This document shows positions 43,613-58,406 of a DNA stretch of 64,000 nucleotides, piece by piece. Both the position numbers and the translations under genes were made by a program. Each line of letters begins with the position of its first letter. Position 1 is the stretch's first letter. This DNA comes from Rivularia sp. PCC 7116. GTDB taxonomy: Bacteria; Cyanobacteriota; Cyanobacteriia; Cyanobacteriales; Nostocaceae. The notes under the pieces are model-generated. The model saw nothing but the letters and a program-made list of their open reading frames with translations, had not been told where the DNA came from and searched no databases. The stretch lies in NCBI RefSeq assembly GCF_000316665.1, contig NC_019678.1:434001-498000 (forward strand), in the 5' to 3' direction.

Positions 43613-45160
43613 TTACATATTTAGCCCATCTTTCTGTAATTTTTTGAATGGATCTAATACAAAATCAATTATCCGGCGTTGACGAATAACTACCTCAGCG
43701 TCTGCTGTTTGACCGGGCATTAAAATAACGCGTTTTTCGCCGTTATCTACATACTGCCGGTCTAAAATTATTTCTAGTTCAAAGCTTTCACTATTTCCTT
43801 GGGGTGTTTGCTGGACTTTTGAGTCGGGAGACACCCAAGCGACTTTACCTTCAACGATGCCATACTCTTGATAAGGGTAGGCATCAAATTTAACTTTTAC
43901 CGGCATTCCTACTTTCAAAAAACCACTATCTTGTATAGGCATACTGGCTTTAAGAACAACATCGGCATTTTTAGGAGCAATTTGGGCTATTCTTTGCCCT
44001 GGTTGTACTACTTCTCCAGGTTTACTAACTGGAAACTCAAAAATAGTCCCATCAATCGGCGATCGCACTATTCTTTGCTGTAACTGTAACTTCAAAGATT
44101 TGATTTGACTGGTGGTTTGAGCAATTTGCGATTCAATAGATGAAATTTGGGTTTGAGTATCTTTGAGTTGTTCTTGAGTCCGCAAAATAGAAAGTTTAGA
44201 GGTTTGCAGCAAAGTTTTATAGCTGCTCTGTTGTTCTTTTAATCTAAGTTTAGCTTGTTTAATATCAGCTTCTAGCTGATTCATAGTTGCCTGATAGCGA
44301 TTGATTTCTTCCGTCAACCTCAACTGGGCTTGTTTCCCATCAGATAAAGCTCTGTCGTAAAGCCTTTTGCTTTCTTGCTGCTCTTTTCTAATTATGTCAA
44401 TTTGATTTGCTGAAACTGCTCCATCTTTAACTAATTTGCTAAAGCGTTCAACTTGTTTGTTGTCTATGCTCAAACGATTTCGGGCAAACTTCTGTTCGTT
44501 ACTATTAGTCTTGATTTGTTGTCTTACTTGGTCAAGTAAAGCTTTTTTCTCTAATTTCTGTAGCCGATAAACACTTTGTTTAGCATCCAAATTTTGTTTG
44601 GCTTGCTCAACTTGGGCTGCTTTTTCCAGAGCTTGGGATTGGTTTTGCTGCTCTTGAACGCTTATTGTTGATAAAAGCTGTTTTTTGATTATTTCTAGCT
44701 GTACTTTCTGATTTTCCAATCCTAAAAGTTTTGCTTCAATCTGCTGTAGTTCGGTTCGTAAAATATCTGAGTCAAATTCTAAAAGAACTTGACCGGATTT
44801 AACAGTGTCGCCTTCTCTAACTTTTACAACTTTAACGCTTCCACCAGTTCTGGTATCCAGCTTTCTAGTTGCACCTTTTGGTTCAATACGTCCTCTAGCG
44901 CTTCCAGTTTCATCAACCTTGGAGATAGTTGCCCAAGGTAAACCCATTAATACGAATCCGACTAGTACGTATAATACCCCCCTCGTCCATAGTTTTGGTA
45001 GAGCATCGAGCAGTTCTTCGGTAGCGTAATGTAAATCTCTTGCAGATGTATCTGCTTCAGACTCTTTATCTGTATTCTCAACTGTAGAAAGATGCTTTTG
45101 ATTTTCGCTATATTCTTCCTTTGCAACTGCTGATGAACTATTTGATAAAGGATGTGGCAT
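43613..45160 (-). CDS. HlyD-family membrane fusion protein of cassette B
   Basis: 515 residues, same layout as the cassette A adaptor: acidic cytosolic N-terminus, one membrane helix (about 60-80, VLYVLVGFVLMGLPWATI), lipoyl half (VREGDTVKSGQVLLEFD), long coiled coil (about 130-350), second lipoyl half (RIVRSPIDGTIFEFPVSKPG), barrel (MPVKVKFDAYPYQEYG). The ribosome site is GAGGAA. It starts 59 bases after the exporter gene. It would span the periplasm and dock to a TolC-like channel encoded elsewhere. Confidence 0.92.
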   Translation of the reverse strand: MPHPLSNSSSAVAKEEYSENQKHLSTVENTDKESEADTSARDLHYATEELLDALPKLWTRGVLYVLVGFVLMGLPWATISKVDETGSARGRIEPKGATRKLDTRTGGSVKVVKVREGDTVKSGQVLLEFDSDILRTELQQIEAKLLGLENQKVQLEIIKKQLLSTISVQEQQNQSQALEKAAQVEQAKQNLDAKQSVYRLQKLEKKALLDQVRQQIKTNSNEQKFARNRLSIDNKQVERFSKLVKDGAVSANQIDIIRKEQQESKRLYDRALSDGKQAQLRLTEEINRYQATMNQLEADIKQAKLRLKEQQSSYKTLLQTSKLSILRTQEQLKDTQTQISSIESQIAQTTSQIKSLKLQLQQRIVRSPIDGTIFEFPVSKPGEVVQPGQRIAQIAPKNADVVLKASMPIQDSGFLKVGMPVKVKFDAYPYQEYGIVEGKVAWVSPDSKVQQTPQGNSESFELEIILDRQYVDNGEKRVILMPGQTADAEVVIRQRRIIDFVLDPFKKLQKDGLNM

Positions 45161-45219
45161 AATTCTAATTCCTCAATTAAAAATGTTTTAGACTTAGTTT
45201 CTAACTCCTAAATTTACTA

Positions 45220-48200
45220 TTAACCTGCTTGTGCTAATTGTTGTTGATTGAGGTAATAATAATGACCTTTTAGGGCAATTAATTCGTCATGCGAGCCGCT
45301 TTCTACTAACACGCCCTTATCCATTACCATAATTAAGTCTGCGTTACGCACTGTAGATAAACGGTGAGCGATAATTACACTTGTTCTGCCTTTGAGAATT
45401 GTCCTCAGATTGTTTTGAATTATACGCTCAGATTCCGTATCCAGGTGACTGGTAGCTTCATCAAATAACAATAAGCGGGGGTTACCCAGTAATGCACGGG
45501 CAATTGCCAGACGTTGGCGTTGCCCCCCCGAAAGTAGCCCACCTCCTTCACCGATATGGGTTTCATAACCTAATGGCAAGAGTCGAATAAATTCATCTGC
45601 TCCTGCTAATTGTGCGGCTTGAATAACCTCATCAAGAGTCGCTTCTGGGTGAGCGATGGCAATATTTTCGCGGATAGTTCCACCAAACAAAAAGGTGTCT
45701 TGGTCTACTACACCCACTTGAGAACGCAGCGACTGTAAAGCAATACCGTTAATGTCCTGATTATCAATGAGTACTTTTCCGTCTGTCGGTGGATATAAAC
45801 CTAAAATCAGTTTGGAAAGAGTTGTTTTACCCGAACCACTACGCCCTACCAAGGCTACCATTTGATCGGGCTTAATCTCAAAACTTATATTCTCTAGTAT
45901 ATTAGCTTTACTTTCGGCATGATAGCGAAAGGTAACATTATCAAATCTAATGTGACCGTTAAGTCTATCCAAAGACTTCCGAGGTTTATTTTGTAAGTCT
46001 TCTTCAGGTTCTGCTTCTAGAACATCATTAAGTCGTTCTGTAGAAATAATAATCTCCTGAAATTGATTCCACAATTGGGAAAATCTTTGAAAAGGACCCA
46101 ACACCTTACCTACTAACATATTAAATGCGACCAATTGACCAACAGTAAGTTCCCCTTGAATAACCTGCCATGCTCCAAACCACATTAGTCCGGTGCTTGT
46201 AAAGGTTTGAATGGCGCTACTAAGCATGTTGAGACGAATCCCAATTACCTTAGCATTGAAAGACTTTTTGACCCGATTGTTTAATAACTCTTCCCATCGC
46301 CATCTTACTGTCTGTTCAATTGCAAGCGATCGCACAGTGCGAATTCCCGTTAATGACTCGATAATGTAACTACTTTCTTCAGCACCTGCATTAAAAATTT
46401 CTCTGGAAATACGCCGTAGAATACCCGTACTCGCTAAAGCCAAAATGAAAAATGGCGGCACGGTAATCAGTACAAACAACGCCATTTTCCAACTATAGGA
46501 AAACATCAGGGTGAGATAAACAACCAACGTCAGCATATCCAGCACAATTGACAGGGTTTGTCCTGTCAGAAAACTTTGAATTTTCTGGTTTTCTTTGATA
46601 CGCGAGATAATATCCCCTACATAACGGGATTCAAAGTAGGAAAGAGGTAATCGGAAAGTATGTTTGATAAAGCCTACTAACAGGGAGACGCTAATACGGT
46701 TAGCGGTGTGGGTGAGAAGATAAGATCGCACCCCGTTCATGGCAATGCTGAACAAACCAAAAACAATCATCCCAACACCAACGGCATTCAGAGTCGGAAT
46801 ACTTCGCTGCACCAAGACTCTATCAAGCAACAACTGAGTGAAAATAGGCGTTACTAGTCCAAATAGCTGCATTATTACCGAAGCAATAAATACTTCTATC
46901 AAGACTTTATAGTGAGGTTTAACTAACTCAAAAAACTTCCATAAACCAACATCTTGATTTTCGGCATCCTTGAGTAAGGATGTTGCTTGCAGTAACAACG
47001 CGTAGCCACTCCAACCAGCATTGAATTCTTTGCGCGTCAGAGTGCATTGACCTCGGGCTGGATCGCCTACTATTACATGAGTGCTTGTAACTCGATAAAC
47101 AACGATAAAGTGATTGCCTTCCCAATGAGCGATTGCAGGAAAAGATTGTTCGGCAAATTTTTCTAAGGTAGCTTTCACCGGACGAGTCGCGAAGCCAACA
47201 CTTTCTGCTGCGGATGCTAGAGCGCGTAAAGATGCACCACTGCGTCCTGCATTTGTAATATCTCGCAAACGACTTACGCTAAAATGTTTACCCCAGTAAC
47301 GACCAATCATTACCAAGCAAGCTGCACCACAATCGGAGGCACTCTGTTGTGCATAATAAGGGTACCGCTTTGTTAAGTGTCCCCACCAGTGACCTATTTT
47401 TACCTTTGGGCTGGGAAAATATATACGTGATGCTTTTTTCTTACTTGCTTTATTATTCGCTTCTGCTTGTTTATTTGCACCTGGAAAGGGAATTATTTTA
47501 TTATTAGAGTGCAGAGGTTCTAATGAAGACCTTCTCCGAGGTGGCTGACGATCTAAAGCAATTTTATGGGAAATCTCACTTTCACCATTAATAAATTCTG
47601 CTAATTCAGGACAATGTTCTAGGGCTGTTTGTAAATTGGCTCGATCGAGAAAATAAGCAATGGTTGGTTGCTCTACTTTCAACTTATCTTGTTTGTTATA
47701 AGCATATATTTGACCTAGCCTTAAAGTATCGCCATCGGAATTTCGTATTTCACCTCGATGGAGCAGCCACAACAAACAATCTTTCGGAGCGGCTATTTTT
47801 TCAGATACCTGTAATGAATGCTTTTCAAAAAGCGATAAAGCCTCCATTAAACCCGGTACTTGGGAAGAATGGTGAGGAAAATTAGAATTTGTTAAACATA
47901 AAAGTATCAAATCCCAGTTTTCTGCTGTTATTAATAATTTTTGACGAATTATAGGATACTTGTCTATCAGATGCTGTAAAGTCTCTTGCTTGAGAAAACC
48001 AAGTTTTAAGTTATGAGATGCTCTAACAGCATAATGGATAAACTCTTGTTCTTCAAATAAAGTAGCTTCACCAAAAGAAGCTCCTCCTGATAGGGTTGTA
48101 ATTAAGTTTTCAGAATAATCTAAAAGTCTAATCTTCCCCTCAAGAACTATATAAAGTCCTTTTGTAGCTTCTGTAAGTTGCCAAAACAGCTTTGCAGCAG

Positions 48201-48309
48201 GCACTTCTATAATTTCTGCTGCTTCTAAGCAACTTTGCAGTTCTTCGGTAGAGATATATTCACCTAAAACAGAGGTGATTTTTTCACTTATATTTGCTTG
48301 TAAAAACAC
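45220..48309 (-). CDS. C39-peptidase ABC exporter with cNMP-binding-like domain (cassette B)
   Basis: 1029 residues, paralog of the exporter at 15551. Order: cNMP-binding-like domain (about 15-145, GGASFGEATLFEEQ), linker, C39 peptidase (Cys in YAQQSASDCGAACLV, His in GNHFIVV, Asp in GDPARGQ), membrane domain, ATPase with intact Walker A (GRSGSGKTT), LSGGQRQR, LLLFDEATSHLD and IAHRLST. The D-loop has SHLD in place of SSLD. The frame begins with GTG at 48309, preceded by an AGGT-type site; no better start is seen. It heads the operon exporter-HlyD-HTH-PpiC-like-Asp-rich peptides. Confidence 0.92.
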   Translation of the reverse strand: MFLQANISEKITSVLGEYISTEELQSCLEAAEIIEVPAAKLFWQLTEATKGLYIVLEGKIRLLDYSENLITTLSGGASFGEATLFEEQEFIHYAVRASHNLKLGFLKQETLQHLIDKYPIIRQKLLITAENWDLILLCLTNSNFPHHSSQVPGLMEALSLFEKHSLQVSEKIAAPKDCLLWLLHRGEIRNSDGDTLRLGQIYAYNKQDKLKVEQPTIAYFLDRANLQTALEHCPELAEFINGESEISHKIALDRQPPRRRSSLEPLHSNNKIIPFPGANKQAEANNKASKKKASRIYFPSPKVKIGHWWGHLTKRYPYYAQQSASDCGAACLVMIGRYWGKHFSVSRLRDITNAGRSGASLRALASAAESVGFATRPVKATLEKFAEQSFPAIAHWEGNHFIVVYRVTSTHVIVGDPARGQCTLTRKEFNAGWSGYALLLQATSLLKDAENQDVGLWKFFELVKPHYKVLIEVFIASVIMQLFGLVTPIFTQLLLDRVLVQRSIPTLNAVGVGMIVFGLFSIAMNGVRSYLLTHTANRISVSLLVGFIKHTFRLPLSYFESRYVGDIISRIKENQKIQSFLTGQTLSIVLDMLTLVVYLTLMFSYSWKMALFVLITVPPFFILALASTGILRRISREIFNAGAEESSYIIESLTGIRTVRSLAIEQTVRWRWEELLNNRVKKSFNAKVIGIRLNMLSSAIQTFTSTGLMWFGAWQVIQGELTVGQLVAFNMLVGKVLGPFQRFSQLWNQFQEIIISTERLNDVLEAEPEEDLQNKPRKSLDRLNGHIRFDNVTFRYHAESKANILENISFEIKPDQMVALVGRSGSGKTTLSKLILGLYPPTDGKVLIDNQDINGIALQSLRSQVGVVDQDTFLFGGTIRENIAIAHPEATLDEVIQAAQLAGADEFIRLLPLGYETHIGEGGGLLSGGQRQRLAIARALLGNPRLLLFDEATSHLDTESERIIQNNLRTILKGRTSVIIAHRLSTVRNADLIMVMDKGVLVESGSHDELIALKGHYYYLNQQQLAQAG

Positions 48310-49688
48310 TGCTTTACCTAAATTTATGCGTGGTTACAATAATTAAAAGATTCGTCTTTTTTATTAATTGGTTAAAAAATGTGTGCTGTGAAAATCTAGA
48401 GTAAATTAGTATTGGTATTTTGTTAGGCGATTTTAGATTGTTTTTAGCTGATATGTAAATACCCGTTTTACTCAAATTATTAACCTAAGCTTCAAAACTT
48501 CAAACATGAATACTTAATTTAGATACCATCCTATATAAGTACTGTCTGCTCAAATCGCATAATTCTTCATAAATAACTTTTAAATACAAAATGAGTATTT
48601 ATTTGCGTTTGATATTCAAAAAATACATACCTGAATTTGTTTATGAAAGGGTTTTCATTCAATAAATATACTTACTGACTCTCTTAACTAACGCAGAGCG
48701 TTTTGTCGAAAAGTATCATCAAAGCAGACAAGTACTTTAAAATCCCAGTTCTCATGCATAAACGAAGCAAAGAGGTGATTTTGGCAATATTTTGAGTAAA
48801 ACATAATACTGTTCAAACATCTTATTAGAACGAGTTAAAGATTTAGATAGTAGGTAAAAAATCTGATTAATTTTGACTCCGTATTGTAAAAAACAGACTA
48901 TAAAATTAGATACTTTAATTTATTTGAAATTATCATCAAAGGTTAAATCTACTTTTTCAGCAGATATAAAAACAAACTGTATATTTACTGTTTTTTACTA
49001 ATAACTATACGGAAAATTAATGATTGTTATTAGCAAGGTTGCTTAAAATCTAGATTCAGGAATGTTAGTAAATTTTATCTAGCCTTTTTCACTTACTCTT
49101 AGAAATTAATTAAAGTTAAGCTAAATTAAATTATTTAAACTATTTAGTTTTAATAAAACTAACAATAATAATGAGAGGCATTACCGGAACACATTTTTCA
49201 TTATTGCACTAACTCGACACTAGTGGTTCTACTATCTACAAAGATTTATCTATATAAAATTATATTGAAGATAAATCTAATCCACAGCCATAATGATTGT
49301 TTAGACATGAATCTAATTGCTGTTCATATCTTCTTTAATAGTATATTTACTGATTTATTGTCAACGCTTTTTAGCAAGTAAATCAAAATCTTTACAGAAT
49401 GTTCATAACAGAAAGGGTTATAGCTTTGAAAAGTGGATATCTAATTATTAGATTATTCTTCTTTTTAGCATATGAAAATTGGGCTGTTTAGAAGCGATCT
49501 GGGGGATATTAAAAGTTTCGAGTTGTATTGTATTACTTTTCAAACACCCTATAAGCTATTTCAAGCGTTATATATGAATCCTACTCACGAGATATAATTT
49601 GCTTTCCGTGGCAGGTTGATCGGTAGCTTCAAAATTGCTTGTCTATAAAAATATCAATATAAATACAAAAAAATTTACCATTACTTTC
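48310..49688. other. 1.4-kb AT-rich gap between cassette B and the third PpiC-like gene
   Basis: No gene seen on either strand. It must contain the cassette B promoter and the 3' region of the 49689 gene, but neither is obvious. Confidence 0.4.
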
Positions 49689-50435
49689 TTATGTACTTAG
49701 CTCAAAATTGCAATACATACAGTCAACTGCGGCATCTAACCATTGTTGAAACATATTATTAAGAATATCTTGGTATCGTTCGGGAGTTAGTTCTGCTGGT
49801 ATATAGTCATCAACCATAAACAGATGATAGCCATTGTCAGTTTTGATTGGGCCGACTAACTGTTTTGGAGAAGTACTAAACACCAAAGGTGCTATTTCTG
49901 GTGTAACAGCCCACCGGTAAACTTTCCCTTCGTACCCACATTTATATCGACGATTCTCATTGATATCATGAAGGCGAGCTGCTTCGTAAAAACTAATCTC
50001 ACTTTCTTCAATCTGATAGTACAATTCCTGAGCCAATTTTTCATTGTTTACAACAAATTGATACAAAATGACTTGTTCAAACTCGGAACGGTTTTGAATA
50101 AAAAATTCTTCTACTTCTTCACCGAATAGTAGCAAAGCTAGCTTTTGTTTGAGCAAACGATAGCGAATTCCGACTTCCCAGTCTAAAGGAGCTAACATTT
50201 GTTGCTCTAGCCATCTAATTGTGTCGCTAGCTTTTTCTAGACGCTTTTCTCTACGCTGACGGTTTGCTTCAATCTCAATTTCTTCTGTTGTAATATCTAT
50301 ACATTTTTGTTGTGCTGTTTTTTCAATTATTCTTTGATATAAAATTTTGGTACATATTTCTTTTAATTTTATATCTCTCTTGAGAAAGTTAATAATTTCG
50401 TTCGGCTCCATAGCTATTTTTAACTGATGATTCAT
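49689..50435 (-). CDS. PpiC/SurA-like protein near hetP (third copy)
   Basis: 248 residues with the same plan as the copies at 12902 and 41966 but more divergent: N-terminal helical part (IEIEANRQRREKRLEKASDT, IRWLEQQMLAPLDWE), rotamase-like part (ILYQFVVNNEKLAQELYYQI, GYEGKVYRWAVTPEIAPLVF, VGPIKTDNGYHLFMVDDY). The parvulin active-site words are again absent. The end has two Cys (DCMYCNF). It lies 1.8 kb downstream of hetP on the same strand, without its own HlyD or ABC gene nearby except HetC. It may serve HetC or another exporter. Confidence 0.75.
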   Translation of the reverse strand: MNHQLKIAMEPNEIINFLKRDIKLKEICTKILYQRIIEKTAQQKCIDITTEEIEIEANRQRREKRLEKASDTIRWLEQQMLAPLDWEVGIRYRLLKQKLALLLFGEEVEEFFIQNRSEFEQVILYQFVVNNEKLAQELYYQIEESEISFYEAARLHDINENRRYKCGYEGKVYRWAVTPEIAPLVFSTSPKQLVGPIKTDNGYHLFMVDDYIPAELTPERYQDILNNMFQQWLDAAVDCMYCNFELST

Positions 50436-52178
50436 GGGTTGATTATGGAATAAACGTTATTGTATAGGTTAATTATGTTTATAATCCCTTCAGTTTATAA
50501 CTAAATTAATTTACGTAATAATTTATTCGGGATGATACAATTTTAGTGAACAATTATAATATTTACGTAATATTACCCTGGCATTTAGAGACTGTAAATA
50601 ATAATAAAATCGCTTTTATTACAAATACGATTCTTAAAAAATAATAGACTAACTGGCAATAGCTGGATATTCTGTATGAAATGCTTCATTTTAGGTTTTT
50701 TTGTATATAGCACTAAATTGATTACTGTTATAAATACCTTCTCTCAAGTTTGTATCTCAAAAATAAAAAATATCAATTGTAGAAAATACGGAAAAGTTTA
50801 TTAATGCATAGGGTATTAAAGAACTAAGAATCAATCAAATATGTAAATAACACATAAAAAAATGGAAGCCAACAATTTATATTGGCTTCCAGCAATTGAG
50901 AGTTTTAGTTATGTGTACATTTGAAGAAAAATAATCTATCCAAATTATTGGAATTACTTACGATTTATAGCTTCCATTGACTATATACATATAAATATAT
51001 CAGCAATAAAAGTTTTTATCGTGACTTATTCATTTTTCATCCTGGCTAAAAGGTTGTAAATCTTGTTAGCTCTTATTAAAGGAAATACTATAATAGCTTT
51101 TATGTTTTTGGGAGAAGTAAAAGCTTAAATAAATTACATTGGTGGAATTCACCATTTTAATTTATTAGTTTAACCTTTATTGAAAAAAGAACCACCATTA
51201 GTAACGATAAAATAACTGTTTAGCCAATAAATTACATGCCCCATTATAAGATTGCCTGCTCAATCAAATTTATTAATTTCATCAGTAGCTAAACATTATC
51301 TTTTACCTCACAGATAAACTTTTTATTCAATCTTTTTTATTGCTGCTATTTATAATTTAATGTATGGAAGATAAATAAGTATGCCATACTGGCATATTTA
51401 TTTAAAATAATTGTGAATATATATCAAATTTAATCATAGTTTAATAATTATATTGCTTACGGAAAAAGCTATATAGAAATAAGCTGATTAAGCCCTCATG
51501 ATAAGTCTAATAGGAATGGCCGCAACTGGCACATTTTGCTTGTAGGGGAGGCAAAAAGGGGTGTAGATTTTCTTCCCCCTTTATTGCCGTTGCTAGTACA
51601 CTGATTGATTCTGAACGCAATAATAAGGTTTTCCTGTCACGCACCAACCCAAGCCTTATGACAATTGCGTAAGTCCTGTCTAAGTGTCGCAAATCTATGT
51701 TTATCTAGATAAATTATTATCAGATAAAAAATATTAATAGCATACAATTCATAGATTTGTATTCACAGATAAAATTTATACAACTATAATCTTCAGCAGA
51801 AATAATAATATTTTGCAAATCAATTGAAACAGTCAACTGATGAATATTTGAACTTAAACATGTGAGTGGAATTTCCCACCTTCATACGGTGGAAGAATTA
51901 CGTTGGGGTTTAATCTCCATTGGAATTTCAACCTTCTTCCTTCTTCCCTCTTCCTTCGCTGTAATTGCAATATTACGCTAGTTGATTAATATCCTTATAG
52001 ACAGCTTAAAATAAATTTTTTCTTCATATCTTGATATTCCGGATTTAAATTTAAAAAAATAGATGCTATAATATAGAACCTACAAAAAATAAAAACAAAC
52101 CACAAACAAAAACAAACTCTAAAGAGTTTATATGATCAAATGCATTACACTCGAACTATTTTAGTGAGTAATAATTAA
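50436..52178. other. 1.7-kb gap between hetP and the third PpiC-like gene
   Basis: No trusted gene. Items seen: a hairpin GGAAGCCAA / TTGGCTTCC (50864-50872 with 50882-50890), followed on the minus strand by ATTTTTTTATG, a good minus-strand terminator; and near 51500-51690 an AT-poorer stretch with the repeat word TGCGTAAGTCCT, which looks like a decayed insertion end. Confidence 0.45.
50864..50890 (-). terminator. Terminator hairpin, minus strand
   Basis: 9-bp perfect stem GGAAGCCAA / TTGGCTTCC with a 9-base loop; read on the minus strand it is followed by A then seven T. What transcript it ends is unclear, because no gene is seen just upstream. Confidence 0.65.
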
Positions 52179-52214
52179 AACCTGTCATACAAATGTATAT
52201 AATGATGACAGGTT
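52179..52214 (-). terminator. Terminator of hetP
   Basis: Stem AACCTGTCAT / ATGACAGGTT (52179-52188 with 52205-52214), 16-base loop. On the minus strand it is followed by TTTAATTATT. It lies 52 bases after the hetP stop. Confidence 0.7.
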
Positions 52215-52265
52215 ATTAACAATAGTTGAGAATAGCGAGCGCCTTTTCTCAAGATGACTTAATTT

Positions 52266-52736
52266 TTAATTGAACTTGTAAAAATTCAGTGGAAGACCTT
52301 GATTTTCTTCCTGCTTAAAATCGGGCTTCATTGATTGATATTCGCGGACTTGGATTTCTAACCATTTGTCAACATTAGCCCCGCCACGAATTTCTGTTTT
52401 TTGTTTGCCAACAACCTCTAGATAAGCCAAGTCTTTAATTTTATTTAGACAACTTGGTGACATATTGCGATCTTTTCTTTGCCTTGAACCCTGCTTGGCT
52501 ATTTTTATATTTTCATTTTGCTGTGGCTTTGATTTTTTTGGAGAATGTTCTTTAATTAACCTGTTGTAAGTGCGGTAGGGAATGTAATGTAGAGGGTTGT
52601 AGCCAGCAAAGCGAAGCATTAAAACACAAGCCCAAGAATACTTGCCTGCTAGAATTGCTTCAACGACTTGGTCGAATTGTTCTGAATGTATTGTCTTATC
52701 TAAACTACTACTAATACCTATTGGCTCTTGATTCAT
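52266..52736 (-). CDS. hetP: HetP, heterocyst differentiation commitment protein
   Basis: 156 residues. The N-terminal half carries the family block almost as I remember it from Anabaena HetP: FDQVVEAILAGKYSWACVLM, LRFAGYNPLHYIPYRTYNRL (about residues 20-62). The C-terminal half has the second block CLNKIKDLAYLEVVGKQKTE, IRGG. The middle is a basic, poorly conserved linker. HetP promotes the irreversible step of heterocyst formation and is under HetR control; the biochemical role is unknown. It lies downstream of hetC in the same direction, as in Anabaena. The ribosome site is weak. A HetR-type inverted repeat is found 1.35 kb upstream (54080-54099). Confidence 0.95.
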   Translation of the reverse strand: MNQEPIGISSSLDKTIHSEQFDQVVEAILAGKYSWACVLMLRFAGYNPLHYIPYRTYNRLIKEHSPKKSKPQQNENIKIAKQGSRQRKDRNMSPSCLNKIKDLAYLEVVGKQKTEIRGGANVDKWLEIQVREYQSMKPDFKQEENQGLPLNFYKFN

Positions 52737-52921
52737 GGTGTTGTTTATCTAGAATAAATTCGCGAAAGCCTCTATACGTCTATTTGTGTGAGAAAATTGG
52801 AAACAGTTTTACATTTTTTAAAGAAGCATCCGAACAATTAGGTAGTTATTTTCAATTAATACACCAACTGTATTATTTATTTTGAATAAAACAGTTTGAT
52901 TGTCTCTTTTCATCTAAGTAA

Positions 52922-53596
52922 TTACCTTACCCTCGACCATCGCAATTTCACTGTAAAAGCCTCAGCTAATTTTTCTTCCCTAAATTGCGTATCCTCATAG
53001 GTAGAAGCTACTTTTTCATGCATCAACTGACAAACTCGATCGGTTAAAAGTGTAAGCGGTATTTTAACTTTGTTTACTTGGTTGAAAATCGTTAGAAGCC
53101 AGGAAAATGACCAACTGATTGGTAATACAGCTGTGTTATCGTAGAAAGCTTTTTTAACCCCATATCGGCTTTGTTCTACCAAAAATTCCGGCTCTATAAG
53201 ATTTGGGACTTTTACCAAGCACAATTGTGTTTTTGTGAAAAGGCAAGTAATTTGTCTAATTTCTTTTGCTTTTCTTTTCATCACAGAAATTATCTCAAAA
53301 TTCATGCTAACCGATAAGACTGAAGAAGAAACTACTTCCAAAGACTTATTTAATAATGCCCGCAACAATACACCTAAGAATCTTAGATTTGAAGGGGCTA
53401 TCTTAAGTGTGAATAAGCTATTAGCATTAATTTTGTTTAGCGCGTTTAGAAAAACTAAGGTGATGAAATTAACCCCGGATATTTTTAACTTCTGGGAAAA
53501 TAAACCTTTGTTGGGATGCAAACTATGCTCGTTCATCCCTGAAATACCTGTTGCCCATAGATTTTCGACTGCATTTAACCTGACGATCCTTTCCAT
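52922..53596 (-). CDS. Unrecognised 224-aa reading frame between hetC and hetP
   Basis: An open frame of 224 codons on the same strand as hetC and hetP. In AT-rich sequence a frame of this length is unlikely by chance. The product is basic, Leu/Lys/Asn-rich, with hydrophobic patches (SGVNFITLVFLNALNKI; LPISWSFSWLLTIF) and no motif I know. There is no clear ribosome site before the ATG. A 122-codon frame overlaps on the plus strand (53235-53603) and looks like its shadow. I do not recall a gene at this place in Anabaena. It could be a lineage-specific gene or chance openness in a long regulatory leader. Confidence 0.4.
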   Translation of the reverse strand: MERIVRLNAVENLWATGISGMNEHSLHPNKGLFSQKLKISGVNFITLVFLNALNKINANSLFTLKIAPSNLRFLGVLLRALLNKSLEVVSSSVLSVSMNFEIISVMKRKAKEIRQITCLFTKTQLCLVKVPNLIEPEFLVEQSRYGVKKAFYDNTAVLPISWSFSWLLTIFNQVNKVKIPLTLLTDRVCQLMHEKVASTYEDTQFREEKLAEAFTVKLRWSRVR

Positions 53597-53603
53597 TAAT
53601 TAA

Positions 53604-54620
53604 ACCTTTGACCAAAAACCTAACTTTCCTACTTGAGGGAAGAATAGTTTCGGCTGCCAAAATATAAAAATTACGGTGACAGTAAGTTGGTAAGAGTACT
53701 AATATCCTTAATAAATCTACCCAAGGTCATTTGATATGACAGGTAAAAAAGATTGACCTTTAGTACTCGGTAGAAGCAATTTATATAAACGTTTAATTCC
53801 CCAAACTCCTAACTCAATCACTTTGCCCTGATAACATTTCGTATAAATAGAAACTATCTAATTTTAGGAGTATTTATGTGAAATTTCTTATTTTTAGTAT
53901 AGCAAATAAAAGTTCTTCATCTTTAATCGTTGATAACAACATTAGTACTTATACTATTTTTTGTCTTAAATGTCATCTGTCGAATAAAATGCTTTCTTGC
54001 ATTAAATCTACTTAATATAATTATACGAATACTTAAGTATTGTGCAACTTTAAGTTTTGTCCTTTAATTGTCATTTTGTGAGGGGTAAGACCCCCTACCA
54101 ATAAATTTTTATTGCAATAAAATTTATTTTTAGTTTCAATTTGTTTTCATATAAGACCTTTGAGAATTGGCGAATATACATAGCATTTTAAGCCTTAACG
54201 ACTATTTATTTAAGTAAAATATTTTTAAAGCTATCTCTAAATTATTGTATTAGTAATAATTGGTTAAAACCCTTAATATGTAAAGGCTTTACTCAAATAA
54301 ATTATGGAAAAAGTTTTTTTAAGTTATAGTAAAGTTAATTTTATTTGATGCTAATTTTATTGAAAAAATAGTTGCATTGAATACAGTTTATCTGTATTTT
54401 AATTAACTTGAATGTAAAAATATATGCAAGCAAATAAAACACTCGCTACCAAGATCTAATTAGAGAAGTATATAGACTTTATTTTTATTGAGTTTAATTT
54501 ATATAGTGAATAAACAAAAATAATTTTTATAGCTGGCATACTCGCAAAAATATTTGCGAATTATTTGCAGTTGCTGTTAAAACCCAATGATGGATATAAG
54601 TGAGATTGCATATCTAATTG
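53604..54620. other. Upstream control region of hetP (downstream of hetC)
   Basis: About 1 kb without a gene between hetC and the 224-aa frame. It holds the HetR-type inverted repeat at 54080-54099 and several AT-only stretches. Confidence 0.5.
54080..54099. promoter_or_regulatory. HetR-type inverted repeat upstream of hetP
   Basis: GAGGGGTAAGACCCCCTACC. The core GGGGTAAGACCCC fits the GGG-N5-CCC form of HetR sites. Read on the minus strand (hetP direction) AGGGGGTCTTACCCCTC agrees at 14 of 17 positions with the inverted repeat I recall for the Anabaena hetP promoter (GAGGGGTCTAACCCCTC). It lies between the hetC stop and hetP, as expected for that role. Confidence 0.72.
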
Positions 54621-57600
54621 TTATTGTATTAAGTTTGAATAAATCATACTTCTTACCATTAATTCTTCATGAGTACCTTGGTCTGCTAAAAGACCTCGGT
54701 CAAGAACCACAATAGTATCGGCATTTTTGATACTACTGGGATTTTGGGTAAATATAAAAGTAGTGCGAAGCCCTTCGGAAGTATTAATCAAAGCACGATT
54801 AAGATGAGCTAAATTTTGTCGAAACTGATACTCTAAAGCTGCATCGACACAGTTATTAGCTTCATCAAAAATTAAAATACGTGGATTTTTGACTAAGCCT
54901 CTAGCAATAGCGATTTTTTGCACTTGTAACCTCGGGAGTATGTTTTCTCCTTCTCCTACAATGGTGCTATAGCCTAAAGGTAGGGATTCGATAAAAGCGT
55001 GCGCTCCTGCAATTTTTGCCGCAACTTGAGCCTGTTCGAGAGAAAATTCTCGATTGTATAAAGTGATATTTTCTAAGATACTTCCCGAAAACAGGAATAA
55101 TTCCGGCGGTATCACTGCTAATTGACGATTTAGAGAATAAGAAGAAACTCTGTGAATGTCATGTCCATCAATCAGAATGCGCCCTTTATCCGGATGGTAC
55201 AAGCCACTAAGCAATTTAATAATCGTACTTTTCGTCGAAGCATTACCTCCGACGATACCGATAGTTTGTCCCGCTTTAACGCGAAAAGAAATATTTTGTA
55301 AAATATTCTTTGCTTGTGATAATGGTTTGTTTGTAGCTAATTCGGTAAAACTGACATTTTCAAAATACACTTCGCCGCGAATAGCAGGTAGCCCGGTTAA
55401 AGCTTTTTGTTCCTTGTCTGCTCGCTCAGTAGCTAAAACATCATCGAGCTTTTCAATAGAGGTGACTGTTTCAGAAAATTCATCCCGTAGGTTTACTAAC
55501 GCCAATATTGGGTTTACCGCATTACCAACAAGCATGTTGAAAGCAATAAATTCACCTATCGAGATTTGAGAATTTATCGTCATTTTGATGCCCCAATACA
55601 ATACGGCGGTATTGCCGAGGTGATGAATCAAACTACTTACAAACTGTAGACAATTGGTTAAGTTTCGACCTTGTTGGCGCGTTTTTATCATCCTAGTGAA
55701 ATATTCTTCCCAGCGCCTTAACAAAGAATTTTCGGCATTTTCAGTTTTGATTGTAGTTATGCCGGTTATCATTTCTACCATCGCGGAGTTTTGTACTTTA
55801 AAATCAAAAGAATATTGATGCTCGATTTTTTTGATAAATAAGCCCAAAAATACCAAGAGAAAGATGGTTGCTAGAATAAAACTCATCACAATCAAAGTAA
55901 GTTGCCAACTGTAATAAGCCATTAGCCCAAAGTAAGCAACCGTCATCAACCCATCCAAAATTGTAGTTATAGCTTTACGGGTTAAAAAGCGATGAATTTT
56001 CGGATTTTCTTGAATTTGGCACAGAATATCCCCTACTCTACGGGATGCAAAGAAAGATAATGGTAATTCCAAGGTACGAGCAATAAAATCGCCGGTTAAA
56101 GTTCGATCTAAGCGATTGGACAAATAGTCTAGGAAGTACTGACGCACTGCGGTTAAAGCAATACTTCCAAACCCAAATACAATAAAACCGAAAGCAAAAA
56201 TATTGATCGAATCTAAGCCAGAGCCAGCGATAAACGCATCTATTACAGTTTGAGCTAGTATTGCCGGAACTATGCCGAAAAATGGCAATAATATTGACAA
56301 AATTACAATTTTTGCCAGCAGAAGAAGATTATCTCTGAAAAAGCAATAAAATCTTTTAAAACTAATAGGTTCATTCTTCTTTTTGTAAAAAATCTTTGTT
56401 GGAGACAAAAGTACGGCATATCCCGTAAAACTGGCTTCAAATTCCTTACAGGAAATCCATTTTTTACCTATAGCTGGATCTGAAATTAATACAGATTTTT
56501 CTTTAATTTGCCATACAACTATATAGTGATTTCCCTGGTAATGAGCTATCCAAGGTGATGTTTGCGACTTTAATTGATTTAACGAACCTCTTACTGCTAA
56601 AGCCTGATATCCTAAGTATTCAGCAGCATTAGCTAAATCGTTCAACTCTGCACCCATATAATCGATGTGTGCAATAGAACGCAGACTATTTATACTAAAA
56701 CGTTTACCCCAGTATTTATTAATCATTGCCAAACTTGCCGCACCGCAATCTGACGAATTTTGTTGTTGAATGAAAGGGTAAATTTTAAACCAGCTTCGCG
56801 GAGGATGTTGATTTCCCAATGCAAAAATGCCATCGCTGGACTCGGGGACTTCCGGTTGGGGGTTTTTCGATTCAATCTCGTCATTTTTCTGAATATCTGA
56901 ACCGTTATCAGCGCTTTTGAAATCCGGTACAATCGTCTTAACTAAATCAAAATATTGTTTGGGTAGATAAAAAAGCAATAGATTAGTTCGAGATACAAAA
57001 TCCGATTGAATTGTATGGGGATGTTCCCAGCTTTCTCCTACTTTCGGTGGGCGATTTTTTCCCGAAATGCTGTCAATTTCTCCACTAGCAAGCCAAAAAT
57101 AACCTTCAGAGAAGGATTTAGCCATCAAACTACAGCCTGCATCAATTTTAGTGCTGACAAAATAAGGAAGTATTTTTTGTAAATTAACAGTATTTTGCGA
57201 GCGAAATTCTGTAAGAGTTTTGAAAAAAATCAACTTCTGAAGTGATTGACTTTCTTGTGAAAAATAATCCGATAAAGCAGGGTAACGCCGCAACCAAACA
57301 TCAAGTTCCCTTACAGAAATTTCAAAAAGCATCCCAGGAGTAGATGCGATAGCTTTATACTCTTGATACTGACTGCAAAATATATTATCCCCTCCAAAAA
57401 TTTGGTTTGGATGAAGCAGTTGAATTGATACTTCCTTTGCCAAGGATGCATCCAAGGCTAGCAAGCGGATTTGACCTTGATAAAGTAAGTAAACAACACC
57501 ACCCTCAACAGTTGAATCACCAAAGCAATTGTACTGAGTTAGTTCATCACCTAATTCAAACTCACGGGCTATCCAAGCTTCTTGAAACTCAGATGGGCAG

Positions 57601-57719
57601 TCAGTATCTCCAATAACTCGCTTCCAAAGCTGGTAAATAGCTTCGGAAACAACGGTTGAGGGAGTATTTTTTGTATCATTATCCGATTTCTGAACTCCCA
57701 ATCTTGGGTGCAAGTCCAT
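54621..57719 (-). CDS. hetC: HetC, C39-peptidase ABC-type protein with degenerate ATPase
   Basis: 1032 residues: cNMP-binding-like domain (about 50-160), linker, C39 peptidase (C325 in QQNSSDCGAAS, H398 in GNHYIVV, D414 in ISDPAIG; all present), membrane domain (about 470-740), nucleotide-binding domain (785-1030). The last is damaged: Walker A reads GGNASTKST (824-832; both inner Gly lost, Lys830 kept), the Q-loop Gln is Pro872, the signature is LPRLQ (928-932) in place of LSGGQ and the switch His is Gln992. Walker B D952-E953 remains. The call as hetC rests on this architecture plus hetP downstream. HetC is needed early in heterocyst development. No HlyD gene is beside it. An NtcA consensus lies 380 bases upstream. 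Confidence 0.9.
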   Translation of the reverse strand: MDLHPRLGVQKSDNDTKNTPSTVVSEAIYQLWKRVIGDTDCPSEFQEAWIAREFELGDELTQYNCFGDSTVEGGVVYLLYQGQIRLLALDASLAKEVSIQLLHPNQIFGGDNIFCSQYQEYKAIASTPGMLFEISVRELDVWLRRYPALSDYFSQESQSLQKLIFFKTLTEFRSQNTVNLQKILPYFVSTKIDAGCSLMAKSFSEGYFWLASGEIDSISGKNRPPKVGESWEHPHTIQSDFVSRTNLLLFYLPKQYFDLVKTIVPDFKSADNGSDIQKNDEIESKNPQPEVPESSDGIFALGNQHPPRSWFKIYPFIQQQNSSDCGAASLAMINKYWGKRFSINSLRSIAHIDYMGAELNDLANAAEYLGYQALAVRGSLNQLKSQTSPWIAHYQGNHYIVVWQIKEKSVLISDPAIGKKWISCKEFEASFTGYAVLLSPTKIFYKKKNEPISFKRFYCFFRDNLLLLAKIVILSILLPFFGIVPAILAQTVIDAFIAGSGLDSINIFAFGFIVFGFGSIALTAVRQYFLDYLSNRLDRTLTGDFIARTLELPLSFFASRRVGDILCQIQENPKIHRFLTRKAITTILDGLMTVAYFGLMAYYSWQLTLIVMSFILATIFLLVFLGLFIKKIEHQYSFDFKVQNSAMVEMITGITTIKTENAENSLLRRWEEYFTRMIKTRQQGRNLTNCLQFVSSLIHHLGNTAVLYWGIKMTINSQISIGEFIAFNMLVGNAVNPILALVNLRDEFSETVTSIEKLDDVLATERADKEQKALTGLPAIRGEVYFENVSFTELATNKPLSQAKNILQNISFRVKAGQTIGIVGGNASTKSTIIKLLSGLYHPDKGRILIDGHDIHRVSSYSLNRQLAVIPPELFLFSGSILENITLYNREFSLEQAQVAAKIAGAHAFIESLPLGYSTIVGEGENILPRLQVQKIAIARGLVKNPRILIFDEANNCVDAALEYQFRQNLAHLNRALINTSEGLRTTFIFTQNPSSIKNADTIVVLDRGLLADQGTHEELMVRSMIYSNLIQ

Positions 57720-58406
57720 CTTTTAATCTCTAAATAAAGTAATTTTATTAACAATAGTCAAATTTTGAAGAAGTAGTTTAAAAGAGCTTCAAAAAGCCTC
57801 AATAATGTTTTATACTAATGCTAACCACTGAATTTGCTCTCTACACCCGTATTAATAAATACTAATTATTTACTTGTTTTATCTTTATCAATTCTTAGTG
57901 GCTTTTCGTACATTGCAAGTTTGAAATAAAACATTTCTTTAGCCAAACGCAATTTACTATCCTAGTAGAGCATTAATTACCATTAAATGCATTGTTATTA
58001 AATTTTTGCCCCTATCGTCAATAAACATCTTATACTTTATCGAAGTTTTACTTCTACTTTAATTAGTGTTCATTGTTTCAAGTAAATGATTATGTATTTT
58101 TAAGTACAACTTCTCATTAGTAGATAATTTATAATCAGATACTTTTAGCATCAAGTTTTTTGAGAAAAGCGCTGATATTATCCTTTTTTTTTATAATTTT
58201 TTTAAATAATTTGATTTCTGCTTGCGAAACTTGTTCATTGCGAACATATATTCAAGTGTTATTAGCTGTGATTATAATTAGAGCTAATAAGATTTGCATT
58301 TTAAAAATATAAATTTTATTTTTTTGACTTTAAAAAATAGCTTAAATATCAATAATTGGGATTGCCGAACTACCATTGAATAGGTCAAAGGTCACAATTC
58401 CTCTGT
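57720..58406. other. Upstream control region of hetC
   Basis: About 690 bases without a gene, containing the NtcA consensus at 58094-58107. A long untranslated leader would be in line with hetC in Anabaena, whose main transcript starts several hundred bases upstream of the gene. Confidence 0.5.
58094..58107. promoter_or_regulatory. NtcA-binding consensus upstream of hetC
   Basis: GTATTTTTAAGTAC is a perfect GTA-N8-TAC, the NtcA consensus. Its centre is about 380 bases upstream of the hetC ATG. I do not see a fully convincing -10 box (TAN3T) about 22 bases downstream on the minus strand, which lowers confidence. hetC is a known NtcA target in Anabaena. Confidence 0.6.

Follow-up and report, generated by a model that had tools for sequence, protein, structure and literature searches.

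HetC is regarded as the exporter of a developmental signal, and in the model strain Anabaena PCC 7120 neither its peptidase nor its ATPase can be dispensed with: C347A/H420A in its C39 peptidase and E970A in its nucleotide-binding domain (NBD) each abolish heterocysts, and its N-terminal part, with a required cyclic nucleoside monophosphate (cNMP) domain, binds guanosine tetraphosphate (ppGpp) (PMC10986499). The conformational cycle has been described for PCAT1, a peptidase-containing ATP-binding cassette (ABC) transporter (PCAT). The ATP-free protein is inward-facing with its peptidase domains docked and cleaving, and in the ATP-bound form these domains detach and cleavage drops (PMC6959990, PMC8794836). 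Here we describe the hetC gene of Rivularia sp. PCC 7116, found in a stretch of 64,000 nucleotides (contig NC_019678.1, positions 434,001 to 498,000; the window), which encodes a HetC whose ATP site carries losses common to the genus and whose C39 catalytic residues are retained.

A broken ATP site in a protein of PCAT architecture

According to Pfam and Foldseek, HetC of the window has the C39 peptidase, transmembrane domain (TMD) and NBD that make up a PCAT, and it departs from a canonical PCAT in its ATP site, at Walker A, the signature motif and the switch His (Table 1). HetC is thus a PCAT by descent, and a putative one by function. A prediction made earlier from the sequence alone (the original prediction) had named Cys325, His398 and Asp414 of the C39 site together with a series of changed NBD motifs, and all of them are present, on an open reading frame (ORF) that can now be assigned to the minus strand. 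Gln319, likely the oxyanion Gln of C39, is also retained. The internal comparison drawn in that prediction is borne out too, as both PCAT paralogs in the window carry GRSGSGKT, LSGGQ, DEAT and AHR. The Pfam ABC_tran profile matches HetC at residues 807-955 with 82.6 bits, against 124.4 bits for the paralog at 45220-48309. Nothing in the same genome comes closer, and identity does not exceed 39% in the next long matches. HetC is 80% identical to L021 and about 44-47% identical to the Anabaena-type HetC of G111, which stands in for that of PCC 7120 throughout and is canonical in Walker A, Q-loop, signature and switch His.

In an AlphaFold2 model (59 rows; mean pLDDT, the predicted local distance difference, 74; pTM, the predicted template modelling (TM) score, 0.48) the strands and helices of the NBD are kept at moderate confidence, with low confidence past the Q-loop, in the stretch leading up to the signature and near the D-loop. 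The top Foldseek match in the Protein Data Bank is substrate-bound PCAT1 (6v9z), with a TM score by target of 0.77, and nucleotide-bound PCAT1 scores 0.68 (7t54) and 0.74 (4s0f, in which the peptidase domains are unresolved). The conformational state of HetC is beyond the reach of one monomer model of modest confidence. Ahead of C39, residues 50-253 are modelled as two consecutive beta-rich lobes, the second of which may be a further cNMP-like fold.

The same losses across the genus

A search of eight Rivularia genomes, one of them the metagenome-assembled genome (MAG) of Rivularia sp. MS3, recovered hetC in all eight. The Ser and the second Gly of the signature are gone from every copy, the motif reading LPRLQ in two, LNGLQ in three, LDATQ in two and LESRQ in one, and the switch His is replaced by Gln, Arg or Pro in 8/8. 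The Walker A pattern is kept in G197 and gone in the other seven; the Walker A Lys has become Asn in the nearest relative, L054, and is kept in 7/8 copies, and the Walker A Ser is missing in G195 and G201. Only the window has Pro at the Q-loop (1/8). The Gln, Cys, His and Asp of C39 are kept throughout (8/8), and the frame is full length in 7/8 genomes. A local error or assembly artefact was considered and ruled out by the same class of change in the MAG contig JAHCMI010000015.1 (L021), inside which L054 (G200) sits letter for letter, and in six further genomes of the genus. Since the two halves of the composite ATP site are both struck, and this throughout the genus, there is good support for the claim of the original prediction that normal ATP cycling is unlikely to drive export by this HetC.

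Repeated breakage from an intact ancestor

For the wider family, 133 proteins were gathered (46 HetC-like and 87 HetC) with a threshold of E 1e-200 and three candidates scored per genome, and the counts given are among the matches listed. The main tree used no alignment columns other than those of C39 and the transmembrane domain, and the two PCATs of the window served as outgroup. Fragments L119, L142, L155 and L124 were excluded from the 83-row HetC counts, and these four plus L060 from the branch-length, second-program and enlarged trees (82 HetC rows). In the 83- and 46-row counts, Asn at the C39 Asp was taken as kept (HetC-like row L048), and the second scored loss of the Walker A Lys (L116) is probably an alignment gap.

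The HetC-like relatives, which come from across the order and include second copies, have an intact signature core (Ser2, Gly4) in 46/46, and the same holds for their Walker A, Walker B Glu and switch His; two of them carry LSSGQ or FSGGQ with the core unbroken, and the Rivularia class of losses occurs in 0/46. Canonical ATP sites are also found in 18/18 further relatives from outside the window's family. The starting state of HetC was therefore intact, and an ancient loss common to all HetC was rejected on these counts together with the intact signature core of 50/83 HetC rows. Within the HetC clade the signature core is broken in 33/83 rows, Walker A in 13/83, the Walker B Glu in 4/83 and the switch His in 16/83, which correspond to 8, 7, 3 and 5 changes on the main tree and to 7, 7, 3 and 5, in the same motif order, with a second tree program (82 rows). 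The signature core was broken 7-9 separate times inside the heterocyst HetC clade. With tree lengths of 13.1 for HetC and 7.2 for HetC-like, 7-9 events against none would have a probability of about 0.02-0.05 under one rate, the events not being fully independent. The 82 HetC rows form one clade with support of 1.0 on C39 and TMD columns once the 18 relatives are added, and with support of 0.65-0.67 in the smaller tree.

The question put by the original prediction, whether the loss is shared or local, can thus be answered: the Rivularia losses are common to the genus (8/8), and similar losses arose independently elsewhere in the HetC clade. By the number of ATP-site positions at which one or more rows have changed, the damage is heaviest in Rivularia (8/13) and g128 (7/13, two rows). 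The two g128 proteins, L148 and L150, have LATSV or LPTSV as signature, the catalytic Glu changed to Gln and the switch His to Asn; their genomes also carry a canonical HetC-like copy, and the ratio of nonsynonymous to synonymous rates (omega) of their HetC NBD is 0.11. A literature search, in which subscription journals were thinly covered, returned no title or abstract on degenerate HetC ATP sites.

Selection on hetC and its two catalytic sites

The synonymous divergence (dS) between the window and L054 is 0.20-0.34 by domain, a usable range. With three genus pairs pooled, omega comes to 0.44 for the cNMP-like domain, 0.28 (0.19-0.45) for C39, 0.33 for the TMD and 0.39 (0.30-0.53) for the NBD, and it is 0.10-0.14 for five neighbours compared between the window and L021 (hisD, GH116, hetP, a peptidyl-prolyl isomerase (PPIase) gene and 614 codons of the linked PCAT). 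Elsewhere, omega of C39 and NBD is 0.03-0.08 and 0.07-0.18 in four Anabaena-type pairs, 0.15-0.17 and 0.11-0.31 in mostly canonical pairs (g130, L064/L065, g135; the upper NBD value has an interval of 0.10-0.77), 0.04-0.13 and 0.04-0.14 in HetC-like pairs, and 0.07-0.31 and 0.11-0.31 in broken-signature pairs. Rivularia hetC is under relaxed, non-neutral selection over the whole gene, and a broken signature in other lineages need not accompany relaxation. The gene does not behave as a pseudogene, its pooled omega being below 1 in all four domains and its frames largely full length. The residue changes, their sharing across the genus and this mode of selection are read directly from the genomes.

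Compared with ten g2 rows, change at conserved positions is more frequent in Rivularia HetC by a factor of about 2.3 in C39 and 2.4 in the NBD. Within the NBD the ATP site enjoys no protection, with 8/13 of its positions changed against 66/105 other conserved positions (8 rows). It is better kept in g130 (1/13 against 37/105; 9 rows, P 0.037), not significantly so in g2 (3/13 against 47/105; 13 rows, P 0.115), and likewise unprotected in g111, g114/134 and g119. Stronger protection in g2 and g130 (P 0.043 and 0.005) came from subsets of 7/13 and 7/9 rows that lacked three g2 rows with an altered signature and one g130 row with an altered Walker A, and is superseded. The unprotected ATP site in Rivularia fits a loss of the ATPase role and is no proof of a persisting peptidase role. 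An unusually fast Rivularia NBD was also considered and found not to be distinctive, since the ratio of NBD to TMD branch length is 1.10 against 0.75 in HetC-like proteins, yet 1.31 in g2.

The peptidase has been altered in the g129/g143 clade (L098, L099, L100, L112; 4/83 rows), where the C39 Cys is replaced by Ser, and L099 additionally has Asp in place of the C39 His. This clade was rejected as a clean opposite case, as the ATP site is unaltered in L099 only and carries one or two changes in L098, L100 and L112.

The hetC locus and its promoter

The gene order of PCC 7120 is hetC-hetP (PMC4133259), and the hetP-like gene behind the ORF of the window, in the same order, marks this as the hetC locus. 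A hetP-like gene lies 3' of hetC in the window and in 5/5 loci compared (L021, G195, G196, G199, G111). The cluster hetC-hetP-PPIase-PCAT-HlyD spans 43613-57719 of the window and is the same in Anabaena-type G111 (L157). Both loci, that of the window and that of G111, thus have a membrane fusion protein close to hetC, although according to PMC10986499 there is none beside hetC in PCC 7120, where no substrate was found near the gene either. The main text of a paper on PatX maturation (PMC12756182) contains no mention of HetC. An ORF of 224 residues at 52922-53596, in the interval between hetC and hetP, was considered as a substrate gene and set aside, since its omega of 0.75 has an interval (0.51-1.24) that includes 1 and it is probably non-coding.

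Two NtcA-like boxes lie upstream of hetC (Table 1), and NtcA activates hetC in PCC 7120. Compared over seven genomes of the genus (G198 left out), the boxes range from -388 to -404 (7/7) and from -143 to -156 (6/7). Boxes of the form GTA-N8-TAC occur 14 times in the whole window against 10.7 expected, which is near chance, and their upstream conservation is partly general because about 45% of the upstream alignment columns are invariant. A block at 57900-58110, directly downstream of an NtcA-like box, is strongly conserved in 7/7 promoters of the genus and is possibly a promoter or regulatory site. HetR was detected in 6/8 genomes of the genus; its HetR_C domain was not found in G196 and G201, which may reflect assembly gaps.

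Table 1. Features of the hetC locus, in positions of the window
Feature	Position	Strand	Basis or remark
hetC ORF	54621..57719	minus	1032 aa: cNMP-like, C39 peptidase, transmembrane exporter domain, NBD
cNMP-binding-like segment, aa 76-143	57291..57494	minus	Pfam, under cut-off
C39 peptidase domain, aa 314-442	56394..56780	minus	Pfam, 1e-36
C39 catalytic Cys325	56745..56747	minus	sequence
C39 His398	56526..56528	minus	sequence
C39 Asp414	56478..56480	minus	sequence
ABC transmembrane domain, aa 471-731	55527..56309	minus	Pfam
Degenerate NBD, aa 785-1030	54630..55367	minus	Pfam and motif comparison
Walker A GGNASTKST, inner glycines substituted, aa 824-832	55224..55250	minus	sequence
Q-loop position, Pro872	55104..55106	minus	Pro in window only
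Signature LPRLQ, aa 928-932	54924..54938	minus	sequence
Walker B Asp952-Glu953, retained	54861..54866	minus	sequence
Switch position, Gln992 in place of His	54744..54746	minus	sequence
hetP-like gene, downstream of hetC	52266..52736	minus	56% identical to same-place gene, Anabaena-type L157
Linked canonical PCAT paralog, possible partner	45220..48309	minus	Pfam and motifs
NtcA-like GTA-N8-TAC box, 143 nt upstream of hetC	57849..57862		6/7 genus promoters
NtcA-like GTA-N8-TAC box, 388 nt upstream of hetC	58094..58107		7/7 genus promoters

What Rivularia HetC may do

The reading that we favour, tentatively and at a little under an even chance, is that Rivularia HetC is an ATP-uncoupled membrane peptidase or docking protein whose ancestor was a functional ABC exporter with a peptidase domain. 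It would have lost the ATP chemistry behind alternating access; the predicted NBD fold, the C39 site and the promoter boxes are kept. Unable to close an ATP sandwich, HetC would be held inward-facing with its peptidase domains docked and, by analogy with PCAT1, in which ATP binding is the off-switch for cleavage, would be stuck in a cleaving, non-exporting state. We infer that it no longer transports, that cleavage survives and that there is a substrate to be cleaved.

Several observations weigh against this picture. C39 and the TMD are relaxed as well, so that the peptidase is not specially preserved; the pooled omega intervals of C39 and NBD overlap, and in the pair L057/L058 the C39 omega of 0.46 is the highest of the four domains. 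The C39 site is changed at 0/4 positions against 18/45 other conserved positions (8 rows, P 0.15; P 0.17 with 7 rows), and a selective protection of C39 is weak on this test. Conserved C39 positions have changed at 0.195 in Rivularia, equal to the 0.199 of g129/143, where the catalytic Cys is gone. The statement of the original prediction that HetC can cut a GG-leader peptide thus depends on the kept catalytic residues and receives no significant backing from selection on the site; a leader peptidase may plausibly have survived. All 8/8 copies retain the D-loop Asp, the signature Gln, both Walker B residues (Asp and Glu) and the first Gly of Walker A, which together with the Walker A Lys may mean residual nucleotide binding. 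The G198 copy (L060) is frameshifted near residue 162, in a draft assembly where this could be a lesion or an error. Finally, peptidase and ATPase residues are both essential in PCC 7120 (PMC10986499). The original prediction had expected loss of function from C39 mutants and no effect from Walker B mutants; the mutants of PCC 7120 agree with the first expectation and go against the second, a result that is not automatically transferable because the Anabaena-type NBD of G111 is canonical. As the catalytic Glu is essential in PCC 7120, Rivularia HetC works differently or less.

It may work less. The main rival, which we hold to be somewhat unlikely, is that the developmental need for HetC has faded and that the whole gene drifts under weak constraint with little or no specific function left, the broken ATP site being just its most conspicuous mark. 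Such decay would account for an omega of 0.28-0.44 in four domains beside neighbours, hetP and part of the linked PCAT among them, that are far more constrained, for the accelerated change at conserved positions of C39 and NBD relative to g2, and for the frameshift in 1/8 copies; moreover, hetC is reported absent from the heterocyst-formers CS-505 and Nodularia (PMC2821919, PMC3610870). The four pooled values are nonetheless well below 1, seven of the eight frames are full length and the upstream boxes are conserved, and elsewhere strong constraint is found beside a broken ATP site, with NBD omega of 0.16 in the g111 pair and at a similarly low level in the g128 pair. Were HetC instead one half of a heterodimeric exporter, its ATPase could come from a partner such as the linked canonical PCAT. 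Two groups, g111 and g119, combine a broken signature with an intact Walker A Lys, Walker B and switch His, which is the pattern of a degenerate half, and at least 24/55 HetC genomes searched have a PCAT no more than 15 kb from hetC (a hand count, with contig ends leaving others open). This arrangement is improbable for Rivularia, because both composite sites would hold a broken half and no complementary defects are seen in the linked PCAT, which is canonical in 3/3 copies (window, G195, G111); furthermore, the PCAT is not beside hetC in G196 and G199, and g128 and g134 also break the Walker B Glu or the switch His. An odd but active site, binding and hydrolysing ATP slowly but enough for export at a low rate, seems to us slightly more improbable still. 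It draws on the kept Walker B, D-loop and signature Gln residues, the Lys of seven copies and the Walker A pattern of G197, and has against it that the signature Ser, second Gly and switch His are absent from every copy of the genus, that the Lys is missing from L054 and the Walker A Ser from G195 and G201, and that the site positions are unprotected.

Beyond Rivularia, a broader and rather doubtful extension of the ATP-uncoupled peptidase would be that HetC, once an exporter, is becoming a membrane peptidase or scaffold that responds to ppGpp in heterocyst-formers at large, with export dispensable in principle for its developmental role. It is just as doubtful, though conceivable, that Rivularia is the end point of such a trend and the 7-9 independent signature losses the trend itself. 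Overall, the natural variants (Rivularia, the repeated losses and the lineage without the peptidase Cys) allow the peptidase and ATPase activities to be separated genetically, and they bear on whether HetC serves development by exporting, by cleaving or by neither.

Comparison with known systems

HetC of PCC 7120 shares with that of Rivularia the domain order (cNMP-like, C39, TMD, NBD), the hetP neighbour and the C39 catalytic residues. It differs in that the Anabaena-type NBD of G111 is canonical and that PCC 7120 needs its catalytic Glu (PMC10986499). By fold and sequence the closest solved relatives are PCAT1 (6v9z, 4ry2) and HlyB (7sgr). PCAT1 has the same C39-TMD-NBD layout and, unlike what is proposed for Rivularia HetC, is a working ATPase; HlyB represents the opposite loss, with a C39-like domain that lacks the catalytic Cys. 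The heterodimeric ABC exporters TmrAB and TM287/288 resemble Rivularia HetC in their degenerate ATP-site motifs, but they keep one canonical site, whereas any composite site in which Rivularia HetC takes part is affected in both of its halves.

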